Origin: Verrucomicrobiota bacterium
Lineage (GTDB): Bacteria; Verrucomicrobiota; Verrucomicrobiia; Opitutales; Opitutaceae
DNA: 44,070 nt
Reading direction: 5' to 3'
Assembly (NCBI GenBank): GCA_030604905.1
Contig: JAUVVA010000019.1
Span: forward strand, 1 to 44,070
The notes under the pieces are model-generated. The model was not told where the DNA came from. It worked only from the letters and a program-made list of their open reading frames with translations, and made no database searches. This document shows, piece by piece, positions 34,165-41,748 of the stretch. Positions within the stretch are counted from its first letter, which is position 1, and each line of letters starts with the position of its first letter. The position numbers were made by a program, and so were the translations under genes.

Positions 34165-34602
34165 CTAGGCCGAGGCCTCGCGGGAGCCTTTGCGCTGCGT
34201 CGCGCCGGCGCCTTTGGCCACCCGGCCGGCGAAAGGTGCGGTGGTCTGATCTTCGCCATCCGCGGACGAAGCCATCTCCGGGTGGAGCGTGTTCCTCACC
34301 ATCCGTCGCAGCGCGCGCGACGACACCCGCACATTCGCCGAGAGACGCCAGAAACCCCGGTTCGCCGGGTGATGGGCAAACTCCTCGACCTCGTAGGAGA
34401 ACTCGCGAAAGCGCCGCAAGCGTCCCACGCTCCGCACAAAATCCAGATCCGCCGCGAAATAATTCGGCCAGAGGAAACGCACCAAGGGAGCCACCAGACG
34501 CGCGTGAGGATAAAGGCAGCGACTCAGGACCACATCCGTATAACGCTCCGGCGCGATGCCCTGTGTTTCGCAATAGAGTTCGGCAAAGGTCTTTTCGGTC
34601 AT
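34165..34602 (-). CDS. Hypothetical protein, 145 aa
   Basis: A soluble 145-residue protein of no family I recognise. It begins MTEKTFAELYCETQGIAPERY with a non-random, helix-favouring composition, contains LYPHARLVAPLVRFLWPNYFAADLDFVRSVGRLRRFREF (aromatic, Arg-rich, hydrophobic), then EVEEFAHHPANRGFWRLSANVRVSSRALRRMVRNTL. The C-terminal ~35 residues are low-complexity. The WPNYFAADLDFV segment looks like a conserved core rather than chance. A start at 34602 is preceded by a purine-rich CTCCC-type complement only, so the RBS is unclear. It sits between the YsnF-type gene (convergent) and the light-sensing operon (same strand, ~200 bp upstream). Confidence 0.7.
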   Translation of the reverse strand: MTEKTFAELYCETQGIAPERYTDVVLSRCLYPHARLVAPLVRFLWPNYFAADLDFVRSVGRLRRFREFSYEVEEFAHHPANRGFWRLSANVRVSSRALRRMVRNTLHPEMASSADGEDQTTAPFAGRVAKGAGATQRKGSREASA

Positions 34603-34808: not shown

Positions 34809-35276
34809 TCACTCGCCCACTCCGCTCCCCGCGTCGCTCAGCCAGCGCTCCCGCCAGCCCTGCACCGTTTCCACGAAACCCAGCAGCCCCACCGGCTTCA
34901 CAAAGTATCCGTCCGCCCCCAGTCGCTCCGCTTCCGAGCGGTCCTTTTCCTGGTTCGACATGCTCACGATCAGCACCGGCAACCCGACGAACTCCGGCCG
35001 CGCCCGCACCCAGGCCAATACCTCCAGCCCCGAACAACGCGGCATGGACAGATCGAGCAACACCAGCGCCGGCAGGGGAAAGCGCCCTCGATCCGCGAAT
35101 TCGCCTTCGCCCGAAAGATACCGGATCGCCTCCTCCCCGTCCTGCACCACGTTCAAACGCTGCGCCATCTTCGCGCGGCGCCAGCAGAGATTCATCAGCA
35201 CGGCGTCATTCTCGTCGTTCTCGGCGTAAAGCACCACCTGAGCGACCGGCGCGCCTGATTGAAAAGCTTGGTTCAT
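34809..35276 (-). CDS. Single-domain response regulator (second of the phytochrome cluster)
   Basis: A 155-residue CheY/Rcp1-like receiver with no output domain. The acidic pocket is AENDEND, the phospho-acceptor is Asp75 in LVLLDLSMP, the signal Ser/Thr is in LIVSMSNQ, and the conserved Lys is in YFVKPVG. The start ATG overlaps the stop of the upstream kinase gene by 4 bp (ATGA, 35273-35276), so it should be translated with it and is its most likely phosphotransfer partner. The 12-residue N-terminal extension (MNQAFQSGAPVA) is variable. Such free receivers relay phosphoryl groups or dock on other proteins. Confidence 0.93.
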   Translation of the reverse strand: MNQAFQSGAPVAQVVLYAENDENDAVLMNLCWRRAKMAQRLNVVQDGEEAIRYLSGEGEFADRGRFPLPALVLLDLSMPRCSGLEVLAWVRARPEFVGLPVLIVSMSNQEKDRSEAERLGADGYFVKPVGLLGFVETVQGWRERWLSDAGSGVGE

Positions 35277-38062
35277 TGGGCGGAGGGAAGTTCCAGAATG
35301 AAGCGGCTGCCTTGGCCGGGCATCGAGGTGAAGCTCACCCCGCCGCCCATGCGTTCGGCCGCCCGGCGCACCACCGCAAGCCCGATGCCGGTGCCCTCGT
35401 ATTCGGTGTGGAAGCGCTCGAACATGCCAAAAATCTTCCCGCGGGCGGACTCCGCCACGCCGATGCCGTTGTCCTGCACATGCAGGCGCGCACGCCCCTC
35501 GATCGTCTCCCCCTCCACGACCACGCGGGGCCGCACGCCGGGCGCGACAAATTTGACCGCGTTGCCCAGCAGGTTTGACACGCACTGCACCAGCGCGGCC
35601 TCGTTGCCGAGCACGCGCGGCAGGCGCCCCCGCACCACGATGTCGGCCCGCGAGACGTGGAACTGCGGGTAGCTCTCCACCACGCCCTCCACCAGCGCCT
35701 GCATGTCGACCGGCAAGAGCGGCAACTCCATCCGCGAGGCGCGACTGTAGACCAGCACGTCCTGCGTCAGCCGGTCCATGCGCCGCGCCGCGCCGATGAT
35801 GCGCCGGAGGTAATCGTGTCCCTCCGGCCCGAGCCGCTCGCCGCACTCCTCCGCAAGCAACTCGCCAAAGCTCGTCATCGCCCGCAGCGGCGCCCGCAGA
35901 TCGTGCGAGATGCTGTAGGAAAAGCCTTCCAGCTCGGCGACCGTCTCGCGCAACCGCGCCGTGCGCTCCGCCACCTGCCGCTCCAGCTCGGCCCGGCGCT
36001 CCGCCAGGGTCTCGCGCGCCTTCACCAGCTCGGTGATGTCGACGATCGTGCCGAGAAACCGCCGCGGCCGCGCATCCTCGAAATACACCCGACCGCTCGC
36101 GCGCAGCCAGCGGTCTCCCTCGCCCACGCGATACTCCTCGTCGTAGGCGCCGCCCTCGCCCGCCCGCAGCGCGCGCCGCACCGCCTCGTCCACCCTCGCC
36201 CTGTCCTCCGCGTGCACCCGGTTGAGAAAGCTTTGATAGTCGTCTCGCCCGCCCTCGGGCACGCCGAGCAGGTCGCGCCCGCGCTGGTTCCAGATCACGC
36301 GGTCCCCGGCGAGATCGTAGTCGAAGGTGCCCAGCCGGGCCGCGTCGATCGTCGCGCGCAGGCGCTCCTCGCTCTCGTGGATCTTCCGCTCGGCCTCCGC
36401 CACCGCCATCTCGCTGCGGGCCCGCTCCACCAGCGGCCACACCCGCGCCATCACCGTCTCCACCAGGACGAGCTCCGCCGCATTCCAGCTGCGCGCGCCG
36501 ACGGCCCGCAGCCGCAGCGAAGCGATCCAGCGACCGTCCCGGCCGAAGGGCGCGATCACCCACGCTCCCTCGCCGTCCCGTCGCGTCACCCGCTGCGAAT
36601 CCGCGCTCTCCCTCTCCACCTCCGTCCACTCCGCATCCGGATCCGTCGGCGCGGTCTCCACCCCGGAGCATCGCCAGCGCAACTCGCACCCGGCCCGCCT
36701 CAGGCCCTCGCCCATGCGGAAAAAGCCGCACTCGGCGAGGCCCAGATGGGCGCCGAGGCCGGAGGCCGCGGCGGCCAGGATCTGCATCGGGTCGGACACC
36801 GTGGACAGCGCCTCGTTCAACCCGTTGAGAAACCGCAGATCGAGGTCGGCGCGTTTGCGCTCGTCGATGTCGATCTGGATGCCCGCCATCCGGCGCGGCC
36901 GCCCGCGCGGCGAGTAGGTGCAGCGCCACTTGCCTTCAAACCAGCGCCGCTCGCCGCTCGGCAGCACCACGCGAAACTCGTGGGAAAACTCCTCCGCCCG
37001 GCGCAGGAAACAAGCCCGCAAGCGCGCCTCCAGCTCCGCCGCGTCCTCCCCTTCCAGACGCAGCAGCCAGGCGCGATAGGTTTTGCGAAACTCGCCCGGC
37101 TCCAGCCCGTAGAGCACCTCCAGCTCCGGCGAACACTGCACCTGGCCGGAGGGGATGTCCCACTCGAAGGTCCCGATCCGCCCGGCGCGCAAGGCCATCT
37201 CCAGGTGGCGCCGCCCGCGCTCCAGGCTCTCGCGCTCCTCGCGTTCGTCGGTGATGTCGATCACCGAGCCCACGGAGCCGACATAGGCTCCGTGCAGCAT
37301 GCGCGGGGACACGGTGTCGAGCATCCAGCGGTGGACCCCGTCGTGGCGCCGTAGACGGTAGTCGAGCCGGCCCCCGGCGCGCGAGGCCACCATCGCGGCA
37401 AACTCGATCCTCACCCGCTCGCGGTCCTCCGGGTGCACGGCGTCGATCCAGCCGTGGCCCATCGCCTGCCCGCGGGCCTGGCCGGTGAATTCGAACCAGC
37501 GCTCGTTCAGGTAGGAACAGGCGCCGTCCTCCTCGCAGAACCAGAAGATGAAGGGCGAATGCTCCGCCACGTGCCGGAAGCGCTCCTCGCTCTCGCGCAG
37601 GCGCGCCGCCGCCTCGCTGCGTTCGCTCGCGCGGCCGAGATGGATGCGCAGGCGCGCCCGCAGCTCGCGCGGCGTGAGCGGCTTTTCACAGTAGTCGTCG
37701 GCCGCTTCGATCTCCGCCTCGTCGCCGCCCGGACCGACCAAGACCACCGGCGGGCAACGAAGGCCCAGCTCGGCGCGCAGCCGCGCCGTCCAGGCACCGC
37801 CCTCGCGCCCGCCTTCGCCGCCCGGCAATCCGGCCGCCGCAAAAATCACCCGCGGGCTCCCGCCTCGCAAGGCCTCGAGCGCCGCCGCCGGATCGGCAAA
37901 CACCGCCACGTCGCAATGCGCCGACAAAGCCCCCCGCACGAGATCGCCAAACGCCGGATCCCCGTCGACCACGCACACCCCCGCCCGCCGCGCCTGCTCG
38001 CCGGCCGCCGAAGGCGGCGGCACGGAAGAACGCAGGACGAGCGACTCGATGGGGAGCTTCAC
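35273..38062 (-). CDS. Multi-PAS/GAF histidine kinase with degenerate N-terminal receiver
   Basis: A 929-residue cytoplasmic kinase. Domains: receiver-like 28-143; PAS 155-275 (ESEERFRHVAEHSPFIFWFCEEDGACSYLN); PAS 285-402; GAF 415-548 (GLGAHLGLAECGFFRM); PAS 565-678; coiled coil 680-712; HisKA with His720 in FSYSISHDLRAPLRAMTSF; HATPase about 820-928 (NLLGNAVKF, QDNGIGV, GTGIGLAVVRR). In the receiver, VVDGDPAFGDL lacks the second acidic residue, and the acceptor position reads FAAAGLPG (Ala76), so it cannot be phosphorylated in the usual way; Lys127 (EKPL) remains. The start is a GTG (38060-38062). It lies between two stand-alone receivers in the phytochrome operon, 66 bp after the first. Confidence 0.93.
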   Translation of the reverse strand: MKLPIESLVLRSSVPPPSAAGEQARRAGVCVVDGDPAFGDLVRGALSAHCDVAVFADPAAALEALRGGSPRVIFAAAGLPGGEGGREGGAWTARLRAELGLRCPPVVLVGPGGDEAEIEAADDYCEKPLTPRELRARLRIHLGRASERSEAAARLRESEERFRHVAEHSPFIFWFCEEDGACSYLNERWFEFTGQARGQAMGHGWIDAVHPEDRERVRIEFAAMVASRAGGRLDYRLRRHDGVHRWMLDTVSPRMLHGAYVGSVGSVIDITDEREERESLERGRRHLEMALRAGRIGTFEWDIPSGQVQCSPELEVLYGLEPGEFRKTYRAWLLRLEGEDAAELEARLRACFLRRAEEFSHEFRVVLPSGERRWFEGKWRCTYSPRGRPRRMAGIQIDIDERKRADLDLRFLNGLNEALSTVSDPMQILAAAASGLGAHLGLAECGFFRMGEGLRRAGCELRWRCSGVETAPTDPDAEWTEVERESADSQRVTRRDGEGAWVIAPFGRDGRWIASLRLRAVGARSWNAAELVLVETVMARVWPLVERARSEMAVAEAERKIHESEERLRATIDAARLGTFDYDLAGDRVIWNQRGRDLLGVPEGGRDDYQSFLNRVHAEDRARVDEAVRRALRAGEGGAYDEEYRVGEGDRWLRASGRVYFEDARPRRFLGTIVDITELVKARETLAERRAELERQVAERTARLRETVAELEGFSYSISHDLRAPLRAMTSFGELLAEECGERLGPEGHDYLRRIIGAARRMDRLTQDVLVYSRASRMELPLLPVDMQALVEGVVESYPQFHVSRADIVVRGRLPRVLGNEAALVQCVSNLLGNAVKFVAPGVRPRVVVEGETIEGRARLHVQDNGIGVAESARGKIFGMFERFHTEYEGTGIGLAVVRRAAERMGGGVSFTSMPGQGSRFILELPSAQ

Positions 38063-38128
38063 GATCGGGGCGGAGGATTTTTTTCGGGAAAAGGCGAGGA
38101 GGACGGGGGCGCGGGGGACACGCGGGCA

Positions 38129-38578
38129 TCAACCCTTCAGGCGCACCGAGCCCGGGGGCGGCTCGTTGATCACCGCCCAGAAGACGCCGAGGTCGCGGAT
38201 CGCCTCGAGAAAATCGACGAACTCGATCGGCTTCACCACGTAGGCGTTGACCCCGAGCGCATAGCTGCGCGCCACGTCGGTCTGCTCGCGCGAGGCGGTG
38301 AGCATCACCACCGGCAGGTTCTCCAGCTCGGGCTCCTTGCGGATCAGGTCGAGCAGCTCCACCCCGTCGATCTTGGGCAGCTTGAGGTCGAGCAACACGA
38401 CCGCGGGATTGCCCTTGGGACGATCGGCGTAGACGCCCTGGCGCGTCAGGTAGTGCCAGGCCTCCTCGCCGTTTCGCGTCACCACGACCTCGTTGGCGAG
38501 GCGGGTGCGGGCGAGCGCGCGCAGCGAGAGGTCGAGATCGCGCGGGTTGTCTTCTACGAGCAGGATCGGTTTAAGCAT
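38129..38578 (-). CDS. Rcp1-like response regulator (first of the phytochrome cluster)
   Basis: A 149-residue stand-alone receiver closely resembling cyanobacterial Rcp1, the partner of phytochrome Cph1. ILLVEDNPRDLDLSLRALAR contains the acidic pocket; Asp64 in VVLLDLKLPKIDG is the acceptor; VVMLTASREQTD carries the Thr, and YVVKPIEF the Lys. DLGVFWAVINEPPP at the end is typical of the Rcp1 family. Its start overlaps the bphP stop by 8 bp (38571-38578), so translation is coupled. It has no output domain. It is the expected phosphoacceptor of the bacteriophytochrome. Confidence 0.94.
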   Translation of the reverse strand: MLKPILLVEDNPRDLDLSLRALARTRLANEVVVTRNGEEAWHYLTRQGVYADRPKGNPAVVLLDLKLPKIDGVELLDLIRKEPELENLPVVMLTASREQTDVARSYALGVNAYVVKPIEFVDFLEAIRDLGVFWAVINEPPPGSVRLKG

Positions 38579-40850
38579 ACAAGGGATTGGATGGAGAGGG
38601 TGTCTTGGGAAGGGAGAAGGAGAAGGTGGCGCCCGCGCCCGGACGGCCCTCGGCCCACACGCGCCCGCCGTGGCGCATGATCACACGACGCACGCTGGCC
38701 AGCCCGATGCCCGCGCCCTCGAACTCGTCCCAGTCGTGCAAACGCTGGAACATGCCGAAAAGCTTCTCCGTGTAGCGCGGATCGAAGCCCACGCCGTTGT
38801 CGCTCACGTGCACCACATGCTCCGCGGCGGTCTCCTCGGACCGCAGCCCGATGATCGCGAGCTCGCGCGGACGGGTGAACTTGACCGCGTTTTCCAGCAG
38901 GTTTTGCAGCGCCCGGCGCAGCATGGACTGGTCGCCGTGCACGCTCGGCAGCGGCTCGACGCGCCACTCGACCCGGCGCGTCTCCGGCTCGATCTTGAGC
39001 AGGCGGATCACCTCGGCCGCGAGTCCGTCCAGGGCCACCTCGCTGATCACCATCTCCACCCGCCCCATGCGGGAGAAGCCGAGGATGTTGTCCACCAGCT
39101 GCCCCGCGTAGCGCGAGCCGTCGAGCACATGCCCGAGGAACTCCAGCCCCTCCGCGTCGAGCAGGTGGCCCTTGTCGGCCTTGAGCAGCTCGGCGTAGCC
39201 GCGGATATGGCGGAAGGGCGCGCGCAAATCGTGCGAGACGGTGTAGGAAAAGTTCTCCAGCTCGCGGTTGGTGCGCGTGAGCTCCTCGCTCAGCCGCGCC
39301 AGGCGCTCCGCCCCGCGCAGCACGATGTCGACCACCGCGACGCGAAACTCGCGGGCGGTCTCGATCTCGGCCGCCGACCAGGGCCGCGAACGCCCGCGCA
39401 CCAGCTCGCGCCAGCTCTCGAAGCTCTTGCGCGGGTGCAGGCGCTCCGTCGGCGTCGTCCCGGGCGCCACCGACTTGGTGGGATCTCCGCCCCAGGTCAC
39501 CGTCTGCACCAACTCGGGGCGAAACCAGAGCACCCAGCTGCGCCGCAGGCGCGAGATCGAGAGCGCGAGCAGGCCGCTCGCCTCCACGGCGTGCGCCCCC
39601 GCGGCGGGAAAATCCCGTGCCAGCGAATCGCTCGCCACCACATCCTCCTCACCCCGCGCATCCAGCCATTCGACGAGCGCGAGCAGCTGCGGCGCCGCGG
39701 GCCTGCGTCCATAGCCCGCCACCCGGCCGTCCTCCACCACCGCCGCGCCCTCGGCGCCGACCAGACGCAGCAGATCCTCGCGCACCGAGTCGATACCCTC
39801 GAGCAGCCGCTCATGCCGCGCCAGACCCGCCACCACCGGAGTCAGGATCGCCTGCAACCGGGTGCGCTGCGCGAGCCCCTCGGCCTGCTCCCGCGCCGCG
39901 AGCTGGAGCGAGAGCGCCTGCGCGAAAAGCGCGCAGGCCCAGCGCGCCGCGAAGGGCACGCGCCGCGGCTCGGCGTTGTGACAGGAAACGAGGCCCCAAA
40001 GCCGACCCTCGCGCATCAGCGAGATCGAAAACGAGGCGCCCGTGCCCATGTTGCGCATGTATTCGCGGTGCACGGGCGAAACGCTCCGCAACGTCGCCAG
40101 GCTCAGATCGAGCGGCGGCTCGTCGCGACCGGCCAGGGCGCGCAGGGGCACCGGCTCGTAGGCCGCGTCCGCGATCAGGCGCAGACGGTTCAACTCGTAG
40201 AGAGCGCGCGCCTGGCGCGGAATGTCCGAGGCGGGAAAATGCAGGCCGAGATAGGAGGGCAGCCGGTCGTTGAGATCCTCCGCCACCACCCGGCCGTTCC
40301 AGTCCGCGTCGAAGCGATACACCCGCGCGCGATCAAAGCCCGTCAACGCGCGCACCTCCCGTGCCGCGAAACCGAGCAACGCCTCCACGTCGCCCAAGGT
40401 CTCCATCTGCCCAAGCAGAGCCTCCAGGTGCCCGTGCGCATCGAGCGGCGCATCGGCCTCGGCCTGGGAAAGCTCCTCGCCCTCCACGATGATTCGCCCC
40501 CCGCGGCGGTGCGCGAGCACCGCGTAGATCGGAGCGCCGGCCCCGCCCGCGCCCGCCCAACGATCGACCAGGGTGGCGCCGCGTTCGAAGCGGACCTCTT
40601 CGGAGGCGAGGCGCACGCGACCGGCCAGATCTCCGCCGATCAACTCGTCCAGCGTCGCGCCCAGCACGCCGCGCAGCTCGCGCGAAAAGACCGCGCCGCA
40701 GTTCTCGCTCGCCTGCACCACCCGGCCGCCGGCTTCGTCGACCGCGAGCAGAAAGCCCTGGGGCTGGATGCTCCCCGCGAGGTGGATCGGCTCGCGATCA
40801 CAGGCGGAAAAATCCTCCGGGCTCGCGTGACTGTCCGCGCCGGGCCTCAC
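38571..40850 (-). CDS. bphP: Bacteriophytochrome histidine kinase
   Basis: A 759-residue red/far-red light sensor kinase. Biliverdin attaches at Cys17 in FSACDREPIHLAGSIQPQGFL (PAS), the chromophore pocket shows PASDIPRQARALY (206-211), SPVHREYMRNMG (His261) and WGLVSCHN (His291) in the GAF domain, and the PHY tongue has WFRPE and PRKSFESW (473-480). HisKA: His540 in FSYTVSHDLRAPFRHIR. HATPase: NLLENAVKFTRP, DNGVGF, EGAGIGLASVRR. The GTG start at 40850 (4-bp overlap with the heme oxygenase stop, GTGA) fits better than an in-frame upstream start at 40883, and places Cys17 near its usual position (~24 in Deinococcus). The stop overlaps the following response regulator gene by 8 bp. Confidence 0.95.
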   Translation of the reverse strand: MRPGADSHASPEDFSACDREPIHLAGSIQPQGFLLAVDEAGGRVVQASENCGAVFSRELRGVLGATLDELIGGDLAGRVRLASEEVRFERGATLVDRWAGAGGAGAPIYAVLAHRRGGRIIVEGEELSQAEADAPLDAHGHLEALLGQMETLGDVEALLGFAAREVRALTGFDRARVYRFDADWNGRVVAEDLNDRLPSYLGLHFPASDIPRQARALYELNRLRLIADAAYEPVPLRALAGRDEPPLDLSLATLRSVSPVHREYMRNMGTGASFSISLMREGRLWGLVSCHNAEPRRVPFAARWACALFAQALSLQLAAREQAEGLAQRTRLQAILTPVVAGLARHERLLEGIDSVREDLLRLVGAEGAAVVEDGRVAGYGRRPAAPQLLALVEWLDARGEEDVVASDSLARDFPAAGAHAVEASGLLALSISRLRRSWVLWFRPELVQTVTWGGDPTKSVAPGTTPTERLHPRKSFESWRELVRGRSRPWSAAEIETAREFRVAVVDIVLRGAERLARLSEELTRTNRELENFSYTVSHDLRAPFRHIRGYAELLKADKGHLLDAEGLEFLGHVLDGSRYAGQLVDNILGFSRMGRVEMVISEVALDGLAAEVIRLLKIEPETRRVEWRVEPLPSVHGDQSMLRRALQNLLENAVKFTRPRELAIIGLRSEETAAEHVVHVSDNGVGFDPRYTEKLFGMFQRLHDWDEFEGAGIGLASVRRVIMRHGGRVWAEGRPGAGATFSFSLPKTPSPSNPLYA

Positions 40851-41425
40851 ACCGCGCGCGCCTCCCGCCGCGCGACAAACCAATCGGCCAGCTTGTCGAA
40901 AGTCTCCGCGGCCGAGCGCAGGATCAGCTCATCGTTCTCCGGCGAGGAATGCCGGCTCAGCTCCACACCAAACTCGCGCCAGCGCGCGCCCACGTCCCCC
41001 TCGTAGCTCCGGAAATAACGGTCGCCCTCGCCCTCGGGCACGCCGAGCCGCTCGCGCAGATGCCGGGTGATGAACTGGCCCCCCAAGGTCGAGCCCTCGA
41101 GCACGTAGCACACGCCAAGCAGCTCCGCGCGCGTCGCGCCGGCGGGCAGTTGCGCCTCGGTGCAACGGGGCAACGCGGCGCGCGCCTCGGCGTCCAGCCC
41201 GAGACACTCCAGGTCCTTCGCCAGCCAGGGCGTTTTCTCGCGCCCCGCCCGCAGCGGATCGGCCGCCGGGAGCAACTTCGCCAGCCGCTCCTCCCAGGCC
41301 GACACGAAACCATAGAGCCCTTCAAGAAGCGCTCGGTGCTGGGCGCGACTCGCCGGCAGACCGGCAAGGGCCTCCAGTCGATCGTGGCGGGCACGGGTTT
41401 CTCTTTTCAGACGTTCGAGGAGCAT
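40847..41425 (-). CDS. bphO: Bacterial heme oxygenase (biliverdin-forming)
   Basis: A 192-residue heme oxygenase that opens haem to biliverdin, the chromophore of the phytochrome encoded next. The start MLLERLKRETRARHDRLEAL carries the proximal haem ligand, His14, in RARHDRLE; the distal helix is YVLEGSTLGGQFI. An in-frame GTG at 41452 would add nine residues. Its stop overlaps the bphP start by 4 bp (GTGA), indicating coupled translation. As first gene of the operon, it is followed by bphP, two response regulators and a second kinase. The BphO type found with phytochromes is distinct from haem-iron acquisition HemO, and the context settles it. Confidence 0.93.
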   Translation of the reverse strand: MLLERLKRETRARHDRLEALAGLPASRAQHRALLEGLYGFVSAWEERLAKLLPAADPLRAGREKTPWLAKDLECLGLDAEARAALPRCTEAQLPAGATRAELLGVCYVLEGSTLGGQFITRHLRERLGVPEGEGDRYFRSYEGDVGARWREFGVELSRHSSPENDELILRSAAETFDKLADWFVARREARAV

Positions 41426-41748
41426 GGGCGGACCGACGCCAGCAAAGCTCACGACGGAAAAAAAAGGGCGGTCGTTTCAGGAGCCCGGAGCGGCTTTGTC
41501 TATCCCGAATTCAGGTCAAATTTTAACCCCCGATCCGCCAGCCATTAGAAGGCAAAAAAAACCCGGCGCCACGACGTAAAATCGCGCTCAAATTTTGCCG
41601 GTAGTCGCTCTAAATCGACGATTTCCGTAAGGAAGCATCGGGGAGATTCCCTAAGGAATCGCTCCCCTAGGTAGAAGCCGTTCGCCCCGGCCTTGGCACC
41701 CGCTCTCGCCACCGTGGTCCAAGCCGCCATATCCTCCCCCGACTCCGA
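41426..41748. other. Divergent intergenic region between bphO and the DUF3108 gene
   Basis: 323 bp with unusually AT-rich parts (41453-41620). It contains a plausible minus-strand -10 box (TAAAAT, 41525-41520), an A8 run near 41555, a hairpin GTCG...CGAC (41604-41619), and the paired dyads at 41619-41667. A 61-codon open frame on the minus strand (41545-41730) overlaps these dyads and has no recognisable content. Confidence 0.55.
41619..41667. promoter_or_regulatory. Two near-identical 12-bp palindromes, probable operator or tandem hairpins
   Basis: TTCCGTAAGGAA (41623-41634) and TTCCCTAAGGAA (41647-41658) differ at one base and are centred 24 bp apart. Each dyad is extended by a further arm with a 2-nt 3' offset: CGAT/ATCG around the first, GGGGAG/CTCCCC around the second. 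So as RNA both fold to the same shape (lower stem, 2-nt bulge, upper stem TTCC/GGAA, NTAA loop). Confidence 0.6.

Follow-up and report, generated by a model that had tools for sequence, protein, structure and literature searches.

A five-gene bacteriophytochrome unit of Opitutaceae whose second kinase begins with a predicted aspartate-less pseudo-receiver

Results

The five-gene phytochrome block

The window, i.e., the whole stretch of DNA analysed here (44,070 nucleotides; contig JAUVVA010000019.1 of GenBank assembly GCA_030604905.1), derives from a Verrucomicrobiota bacterium of the family Opitutaceae, and the draft genome of this bacterium comprises 4.19 Mb on 234 contigs, at 81% completeness. 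It carries a phytochrome signalling unit composed of five genes, bphO, bphP, rec1, hk2 and rec2, all located on the minus strand; their start codons were picked by position and homology. The bphO and bphP genes overlap by 4 bp, bphP and rec1 by 8 bp, and hk2 and rec2 by 4 bp, with a gap of 66 bp between rec1 and hk2. These junctions agree with the original prediction for this DNA, which had been made from the sequence letters. No membrane parts were predicted for the five proteins in the Pfam scan.

The bphO gene (40847-41425, with an alternative GTG start at 41452) encodes a heme oxygenase of the type supplying biliverdin (Pfam Heme_oxygenase, 54.4 bits). The product of bphP (38571-40850, GTG start) is a bacteriophytochrome kinase with the Pfam domain order PAS_2-GAF-PHY-HisKA-HATPase, and its PHY match (180.4 bits) was the sole one in the 81%-complete genome. 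The best solved relative of BphP is a bacteriophytochrome (residues 22-762 of the longer frame aligned, E 7e-136). Cys17, the DIP motif (D209-I210-P211), His261 and His540 were conserved in three sequences, and the protein thus combines a PAS-GAF-PHY core, an N-terminal Cys and a DIP motif with the HisKA-HATPase module that follows them. The rec1 (38129-38578) and rec2 (34809-35276) genes encode single-domain receivers, with Response_reg as the only Pfam domain in each (53.2 bits for REC2). In the product of hk2 (35273-38062, GTG start), Pfam identified three PAS_3 stretches, HisKA and HATPase_c, preceded by a weak N-terminal Response_reg match (20.7 bits versus a cut-off of 30.2); HWE_HK and HisKA_2 gave no match in the Pfam scan of this protein. 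The original prediction had assigned three PAS domains and one GAF domain to HK2. The PAS domains were recovered, whereas for the GAF domain the L055 ortholog introduced below was alone in giving a match above the cut-off (30.4 bits, residues 423-558); the window protein had no Pfam match to it at E<=1, and none was listed for the G013 ortholog at E<=0.01. With the GAF domain placed from the L055 ortholog, the architecture of HK2 reads pseudo-receiver-PAS-PAS-GAF-PAS-HisKA-HATPase.

The same five genes were found in the same order in a genome of the same genus (G013) and in Opitutaceae bacterium UBA4094 (L055, the same contig as G602). In all three, bphO adjoins bphP. The 8-bp overlap of rec1 and the 4-bp overlap of rec2 recurred in both relatives, which argues that these junctions are more than chance, and the rec1-hk2 gap measured 66, 53 and 34 bp in the window, G013 and L055, respectively. 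The HK2 orthologs were 77% (G013) and 62% (L055) identical to the window protein. The flanks were compared by tblastn, using window frames of at least 100 amino acids and matches above 90 bits against the G013 and L055 loci. Besides the unit, only the right flank was common to the window and G013; nothing but the unit matched in L055, the 20-kb locus of which extends about 8 and 5 kb past the unit. A scan of the family yielded a PHY match in 20 of 252 genomes, 18 of them above the cut-off, and the neighbourhoods of all 18 were inspected. A rec1-type receiver (at least 66% identical to REC1) accompanied the phytochrome in five of these (the window, G013, L055/G602, G055 and G629). The full unit was present in 3/252 family genomes, that is, in three of the five having this bphP-receiver type; G055 and G629 carried the bphO-bphP-rec1 triad only, without a kinase behind it. 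The original prediction of one unit with two kinases and two receivers lacking output domains is supported by this conservation, and the presence in relatives on which it had staked its reading was found in G013 and L055.

Two further loci of the family showed deviating arrangements. In G629 (L202, 6712-8903), a bphP of the same type is split over two open frames between the bphO and rec1 frames; the locus contains unknown bases elsewhere, and the split reflects either decay or an assembly error. In G524 (L195, 11-4638), two tandem phytochrome kinase genes precede a single receiver gene and a kinase gene.

The receiver domain of HK2

The N-terminal domain of HK2 (37646-37981, about residues 28-139) was delimited by alignments, an AlphaFold2 model and Foldseek. 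It was aligned on the complete active site of REC1 (E9 D10 D64 T94 K116), and the E/D-D-D-T/S-K sites of the domain read D-G-A-gap-K in the window, D-P-S-G-K in G013 and D-S-A-G-K in L055; the window gap at the Thr/Ser site was a Gly in a second alignment. The phospho-Asp (replaced by A, S and A in the three orthologs), the second acidic residue and the Thr/Ser were therefore lost in all three units, and the Lys was kept. A pseudo-receiver is defined as a receiver fold without one or more of the five conserved residues (PMC12632262; this and the other publications are cited from excerpts). By this definition, and as judged from alignments and model, the domain is an aspartate-less pseudo-receiver. 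AlphaFold2 modelling of the domain (two sequences) gave five strands and five helices, with a predicted local distance difference test score (pLDDT) of 78.9 for the best model and 51-72 for the other four. All of the 50 best Foldseek matches of the model either are receivers or contain one (best E 2.4e-7). The receiver fold thus seems to be kept, and the "dead receiver" noted earlier in HK2 is in agreement with both the alignments and the predicted structure.

Of all folded domains of HK2, the pseudo-receiver is the least identical between the carriers, at 66% with G013 and 47% with L055, and its non-synonymous divergence (dN) exceeds that of the others. Its ratio of non-synonymous to synonymous divergence (dN/dS) was about 0.28 (G013) and 0.63 (L055), and the respective values were 0.14 and 0.19 for the coil plus HisKA and 0.41 and 0.51 for GAF. 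By dN/dS versus G013, GAF is therefore looser than the pseudo-receiver.

The third-slot kinase in other phytochrome loci

The gene position occupied by hk2 was examined in a set of named loci, the top 80 among 560 confirmed ones, which were retrieved with the window, G013 and G055 phytochromes as queries and come mostly from alphaproteobacteria. A receiver lies directly after bphP in 79 of the 80 (L057 ends too soon, and L072 is partly cut). L055, where the third gene is hk2 itself, was set aside together with L057 and L072 (contig ends), leaving 77 readable loci. In all 77, the gene after bphP and the receiver starts with a receiver domain. The second kinase had been regarded as an unusual insertion; this view is not upheld, given that a receiver-first kinase fills the slot in every readable locus. 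The hidden Markov model used for the third-gene counts included some of the tested sequences, and Pfam on 10 of the genes served as an independent check; it identified a receiver in 10/10 and two receivers in five. The third-slot receivers carried EDDSK in 70 of 74 aligned sequences, with the same motif in the other four and in three more, and the phospho-Asp was kept in 77/77. Verrucomicrobiota kinases following a phytochrome or its receiver contained two receivers in all eight that were scanned; the active site was complete in 11 of 12, the remaining one being cut at the front and keeping D-T-K, and the Asp was kept in 12/12. Other Verrucomicrobiota phytochrome loci, e.g., L143 to L148, had no such kinase beside the phytochrome. 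A small receiver frame 400-6000 bp past the first receiver occurred in only three of the 72 named loci with enough sequence, and only in L055 was it located directly behind the third-slot kinase. The uncommon feature of the unit is therefore the separate receiver right behind this kinase.

Constraint on REC1

The best Protein Data Bank matches of REC1 were 5ic5 (E 2e-58) and 5brj (E 4e-54), with Rcp1 at 4e-24. We take 5ic5 to be RtBRR and 5brj to be AtBRR, the Agrobacterium regulator. As a lone receiver with an intact site and these nearest relatives, REC1 is a BRR/AgR-type single-domain response regulator. A C-terminal arm motif, hFWAh followed by a hydrophobic residue, was reportedly described for such regulators by Baker et al. 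in 2016, and the C-terminus of REC1 (VFWAVI) fits it. The motif was present in 64 of 79 named-locus regulators; the other 15 comprised 14 near variants and one truncated read.

REC1 identity in the three Opitutaceae pairs was 92.6, 92.6 and 98.7% (the last to G013), at BphP identities of 66.7, 67.8 and 73.5%. The maxima for comparable pairs in the same BphP identity bands were 90.8% (54 pairs) and 96.5% (276 pairs), the pairs not being independent of each other. The dN/dS of rec1 was 0.017 and 0.064, and 31 synonymous but only 2 non-synonymous codon changes separated it from the G013 gene. Its fourfold-site divergence from L055 (41.7%) resembled that of its neighbours (44-54%), and selection on the protein therefore explains the identity of REC1. 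The alternative that rec1 had recently been transferred or had undergone gene conversion was mostly rejected on account of the 31:2 codon changes and the neighbour-like divergence from L055. Purifying selection on the protein is what the invariance mainly points to. The fourfold-site divergence from G013 (23.6%) was below that of the other four genes (34.5-51.1%), and given this lower value some exchange of rec1 between the window and G013 lineages may have taken place. The constraint on REC1 suggests an extra partner.

REC2 and the origins of the two halves

In all three orthologs, REC2 carries the sequence YAENDEND, in which Asn occupies the position of the second acidic, metal-binding residue; this position was Asp in 9/9 aligned paralogs. 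Asn is a common replacement at this site in pseudo-receivers (PMC12632262). The phospho-Asp, Ser and Lys are kept. REC2 counts as a pseudo-receiver if any missing residue suffices, and it may still be phosphorylated, as judged from the retained residues.

Twenty paralog loci, from this genome and from the family, were fetched because each held an hk2-type core or a rec2-type receiver. The HK2 core was 46-58% identical to the kinases in 14 of them; the identity was lower in L177, L179, L180 and L181, and L174 and L188 held no core. In eight of the 20, an hk2-type core stood beside a rec2-type (Rcp-like) receiver, forming a histidine kinase-receiver pair, with the receiver before the kinase in three and after it in five. 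The cores of these pairs fell within the 46-58% range in seven of the eight (38% in L177), the frames often overlapped, and the receivers were 39-43% identical to REC2. Unlike the unit, the pairs showed no phytochrome in the fetched 5-9 kb, and the second acidic residue of their receivers was kept.

A search of 141 relatives identified, as the nearest outside relative of the HK2 receiver, an intact receiver in a 1370-amino-acid kinase of the same genome, the second half of which resembles HK2 (core 54% identical). This kinase (L169, contig C226, 3396-7508) has the domain order GAF-HisKA-HATPase-REC-PAS-PAS-PAS-HisKA-HATPase, with the intact receiver between the two kinase modules. HK2 and REC2 thus resemble local Opitutaceae pairs and not ExsG, the third-slot kinase of Agrobacterium. 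The idea that the HK2 receiver is a worn-down alphaproteobacterial third-gene receiver was rejected as the less simple reading, since its closest relatives lie in kinases of the same family and the core is 46-58% identical to 14 of the 20 local paralog loci versus 23-29% to those third-gene kinases that tblastn picks up.

A bphP tree was built with 46 rows, 28 taken from the set of 80 named loci plus 18 further ones. The window, G013, L055 and G055 grouped together (100/99) inside a Planctomycetota/alphaproteobacterial clade (100/99), and the five further family members in the tree lay apart from this group. The tree suggests that the bphO-bphP-rec1 triad was acquired.

Other features of the region

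A scan of the region revealed no sigma-70-like promoter. Terminator-like sites numbered 9 versus 4.6 expected, none of them inside the 66-bp rec1-hk2 gap. A frame of 145 amino acids (34165-34602) follows rec2 at a distance of 206 bp on the minus strand; it had no significant Pfam or NCBIfam match, and neither the G013 nor the L055 locus matched it above 90 bits.

Discussion

The closest layout that has been worked out is that of Agrobacterium, where agp1, agR and exsG form an operon and exsF is adjacent on the other strand (PMC1552090). In vitro, BphP1 (Agp1) phosphorylates both AgR and, at Asp62, the N-terminal ExsG receiver. ExsG in turn phosphorylates ExsF and not AgR, and it is inhibited once its own receiver is phosphorylated; the authors termed the BphP1-AgR-ExsG-ExsF cascade intrinsically branched (PMC3899027). 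Both systems consist of a phytochrome kinase, a lone receiver, a soluble receiver-first kinase and a second lone receiver encoded by adjacent genes, with AgR and REC1 being the same receiver type, and hk2 shares with exsG its place directly behind bphP and the bphP receiver gene. In contrast to the live receiver of ExsG, which precedes an HWE core directly, the receiver of HK2 has lost the phosphorylatable Asp, and its core is of the HisKA type, located behind three PAS domains and one GAF domain. The Opitutaceae unit further differs in having all five genes on one strand and in including bphO. A branched relay of two kinases and two receivers, as originally predicted, is accordingly a published layout; its passage through HK2 is very unlikely because the receiver of this kinase is without a phospho-acceptor in all three species. 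What sets the Opitutaceae units apart is the lost receiver chemistry of the linking kinase in all three, not the branching.

Other described systems share parts of this organisation. Ramlibacter tataouinensis has a putative operon hmuO-RtBphP1-RtBRR-RtBHK, in which a heme oxygenase, a phytochrome, a response regulator termed arm-in-arm and an atypical hybrid kinase follow each other, and the phenotype of the kinase mutant was like that of the phytochrome mutants; the excerpt describes no fifth gene or lost receiver site (PMC6848086). In Rhodospirillum centenum, CheA3-CheS3-CheY3 form a kinase cascade that enters the second kinase via a receiver of that kinase and ends at a single-domain regulator (PMC3868531). 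The Verrucomicrobiota loci with a REC-(PAS)-HK-REC kinase (REC, receiver domain; HK, histidine kinase) also have receivers before and after the kinase in the same gene slot. Unlike in the Opitutaceae unit, both receivers are part of the kinase protein itself, and the Asp of the N-terminal one is kept; the bphP and lone receiver of these loci are of another lineage, and some loci are without the lone receiver. Nothing on the Opitutaceae unit was found in the open-access collection searched (phytochrome with Opitutaceae; bacteriophytochrome with pseudo-receiver or Verrucomicrobi-), from which most subscription papers are absent; the pseudo-receiver papers dealt, by title and opening of the abstract, with clocks and cyanobacteria.

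Receiver folds within histidine kinases that have lost their phospho-chemistry recall CikA and ShkA, although the place of the pseudo-receiver in those proteins differs from that in HK2. CikA and ShkA have in common with HK2 a receiver fold without phospho-chemistry, but their pseudo-receivers have known ligands or partners; that of CikA is an inhibitor of the kinase it belongs to and also binds KaiB (PMC12632262).

We favour, with a probability of about 0.66, the reading that the unit is a red/far-red operon of known layout in which the linking receiver has turned into a pseudo-receiver, with BphP feeding REC1 and HK2 feeding REC2. At the sequence level, the gene set and order, the conservation of the block, the catalytic motifs of both kinases and of REC1, and the loss of the acceptor in HK2 are firm. 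BphO would make biliverdin, as is established for its family. BphP would autophosphorylate in a light-dependent manner and then phosphorylate REC1, and HK2 would autophosphorylate according to whatever its three PAS domains and one GAF domain sense and then phosphorylate REC2. The ExsG-type switch, in which the phosphorylated receiver shuts the kinase, would not be available to HK2 because its receiver is without the acceptor Asp. Light would have to reach HK2 another way or not at all, the kinase being either free of light control or touched by light only via binding of REC1 or BphP or via cross-talk at the receivers. As to the origin of the unit, the simplest story is that a local Opitutaceae kinase-receiver pair filled an empty third slot, re-creating an ExsG-like layout from other parts; the recruitment probably went into an acquired triad without a third kinase, as is still seen in G055 and G629.

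Several observations weigh against this reading. The unit was found in three genomes only, all of them drafts. The pseudo-receiver, with the lowest identity and the highest dN of the HK2 domains, may be a vestige and not a functioning module. Phosphotransfer to REC2 is not assured because one metal-binding residue is missing. The origin of HK2 and REC2 from a local pair rests on likeness and not on a fixed order, since the order varies among the eight paralog pairs, and the bphP tree, with three long branches and 10 open forks of 43, leaves the donor and the direction of transfer unsettled.

How the two halves are connected was considered along several lines. That BphP-REC1 and HK2-REC2 are parallel pairs that merely share a transcript, with the pseudo-receiver as a leftover and co-expression as the sole link, is less likely than not. 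The poor conservation of the pseudo-receiver among the folded domains of HK2 would be expected from it, HK2-REC2-like pairs stand alone elsewhere in the genome, and two bphO-bphP-rec1 triads exist without HK2. Yet the block is intact in L055, where nothing else detected around it is common, and the receiver fold is predicted to be kept, with the domain still under some constraint; in addition, wherever it was tested, the gene behind the REC1 position has a functional connection with the phytochrome (ExsG in vitro; the BHK mutant of Ramlibacter, PMC6848086). Slightly more doubtful is a docking mechanism in which REC1, its state set by BphP, binds the pseudo-receiver or the transmitter of HK2 and sets its activity without phosphotransfer. 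Direct inhibition of the kinase CckA by the single-domain regulator Osp (PMC9430884) and the CikA pseudo-receiver (PMC12632262) are precedents, the modelled pseudo-receiver fold is kept, and REC1 is an outlier in constraint, lying above the maximum of both the 54 and the 276 comparable pairs, although the pairs in that comparison are not independent. The contact face should be conserved in such a mechanism, but the pseudo-receiver as a whole is less conserved than any other folded domain of HK2, which speaks against a tight docking site. The specific proposal that the phosphoryl link was replaced by a binding link, with the pseudo-receiver itself reading the light state by docking REC1 (or BphP), is considered unlikely.

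Shared substrates, i.e., phosphorylation of REC2 by BphP or of REC1 by HK2, would let the signals meet at the receivers. Both kinases are co-encoded and of the HisKA type, their cores are 38% identical, and the two receivers are 34% identical; against this stand the specificity of ExsG for ExsF over AgR in Agrobacterium (PMC3899027) and the different closest relatives of REC1 and REC2, each with kinases of their own, and such cross-talk is improbable. A strict relay, with the phosphoryl group passing from BphP to the receiver of HK2 as in ExsG, would suit the slot and domain order of hk2, which are those of ExsG-type kinases; with the phospho-Asp, the second acidic residue and the Thr/Ser lost in 3/3 units, we give it hardly any chance.

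ExsG, the counterpart with a live receiver, has been worked out biochemically, and the phospho-linked layout of Agrobacterium and the apparently phospho-blind layout of the Opitutaceae unit are directly comparable. The system is small and co-encoded, comprising five proteins. If the binding link were true, a relay step would have turned allosteric in this unit, and HK2 would provide an input-driven pseudo-receiver with its natural regulator encoded next door.

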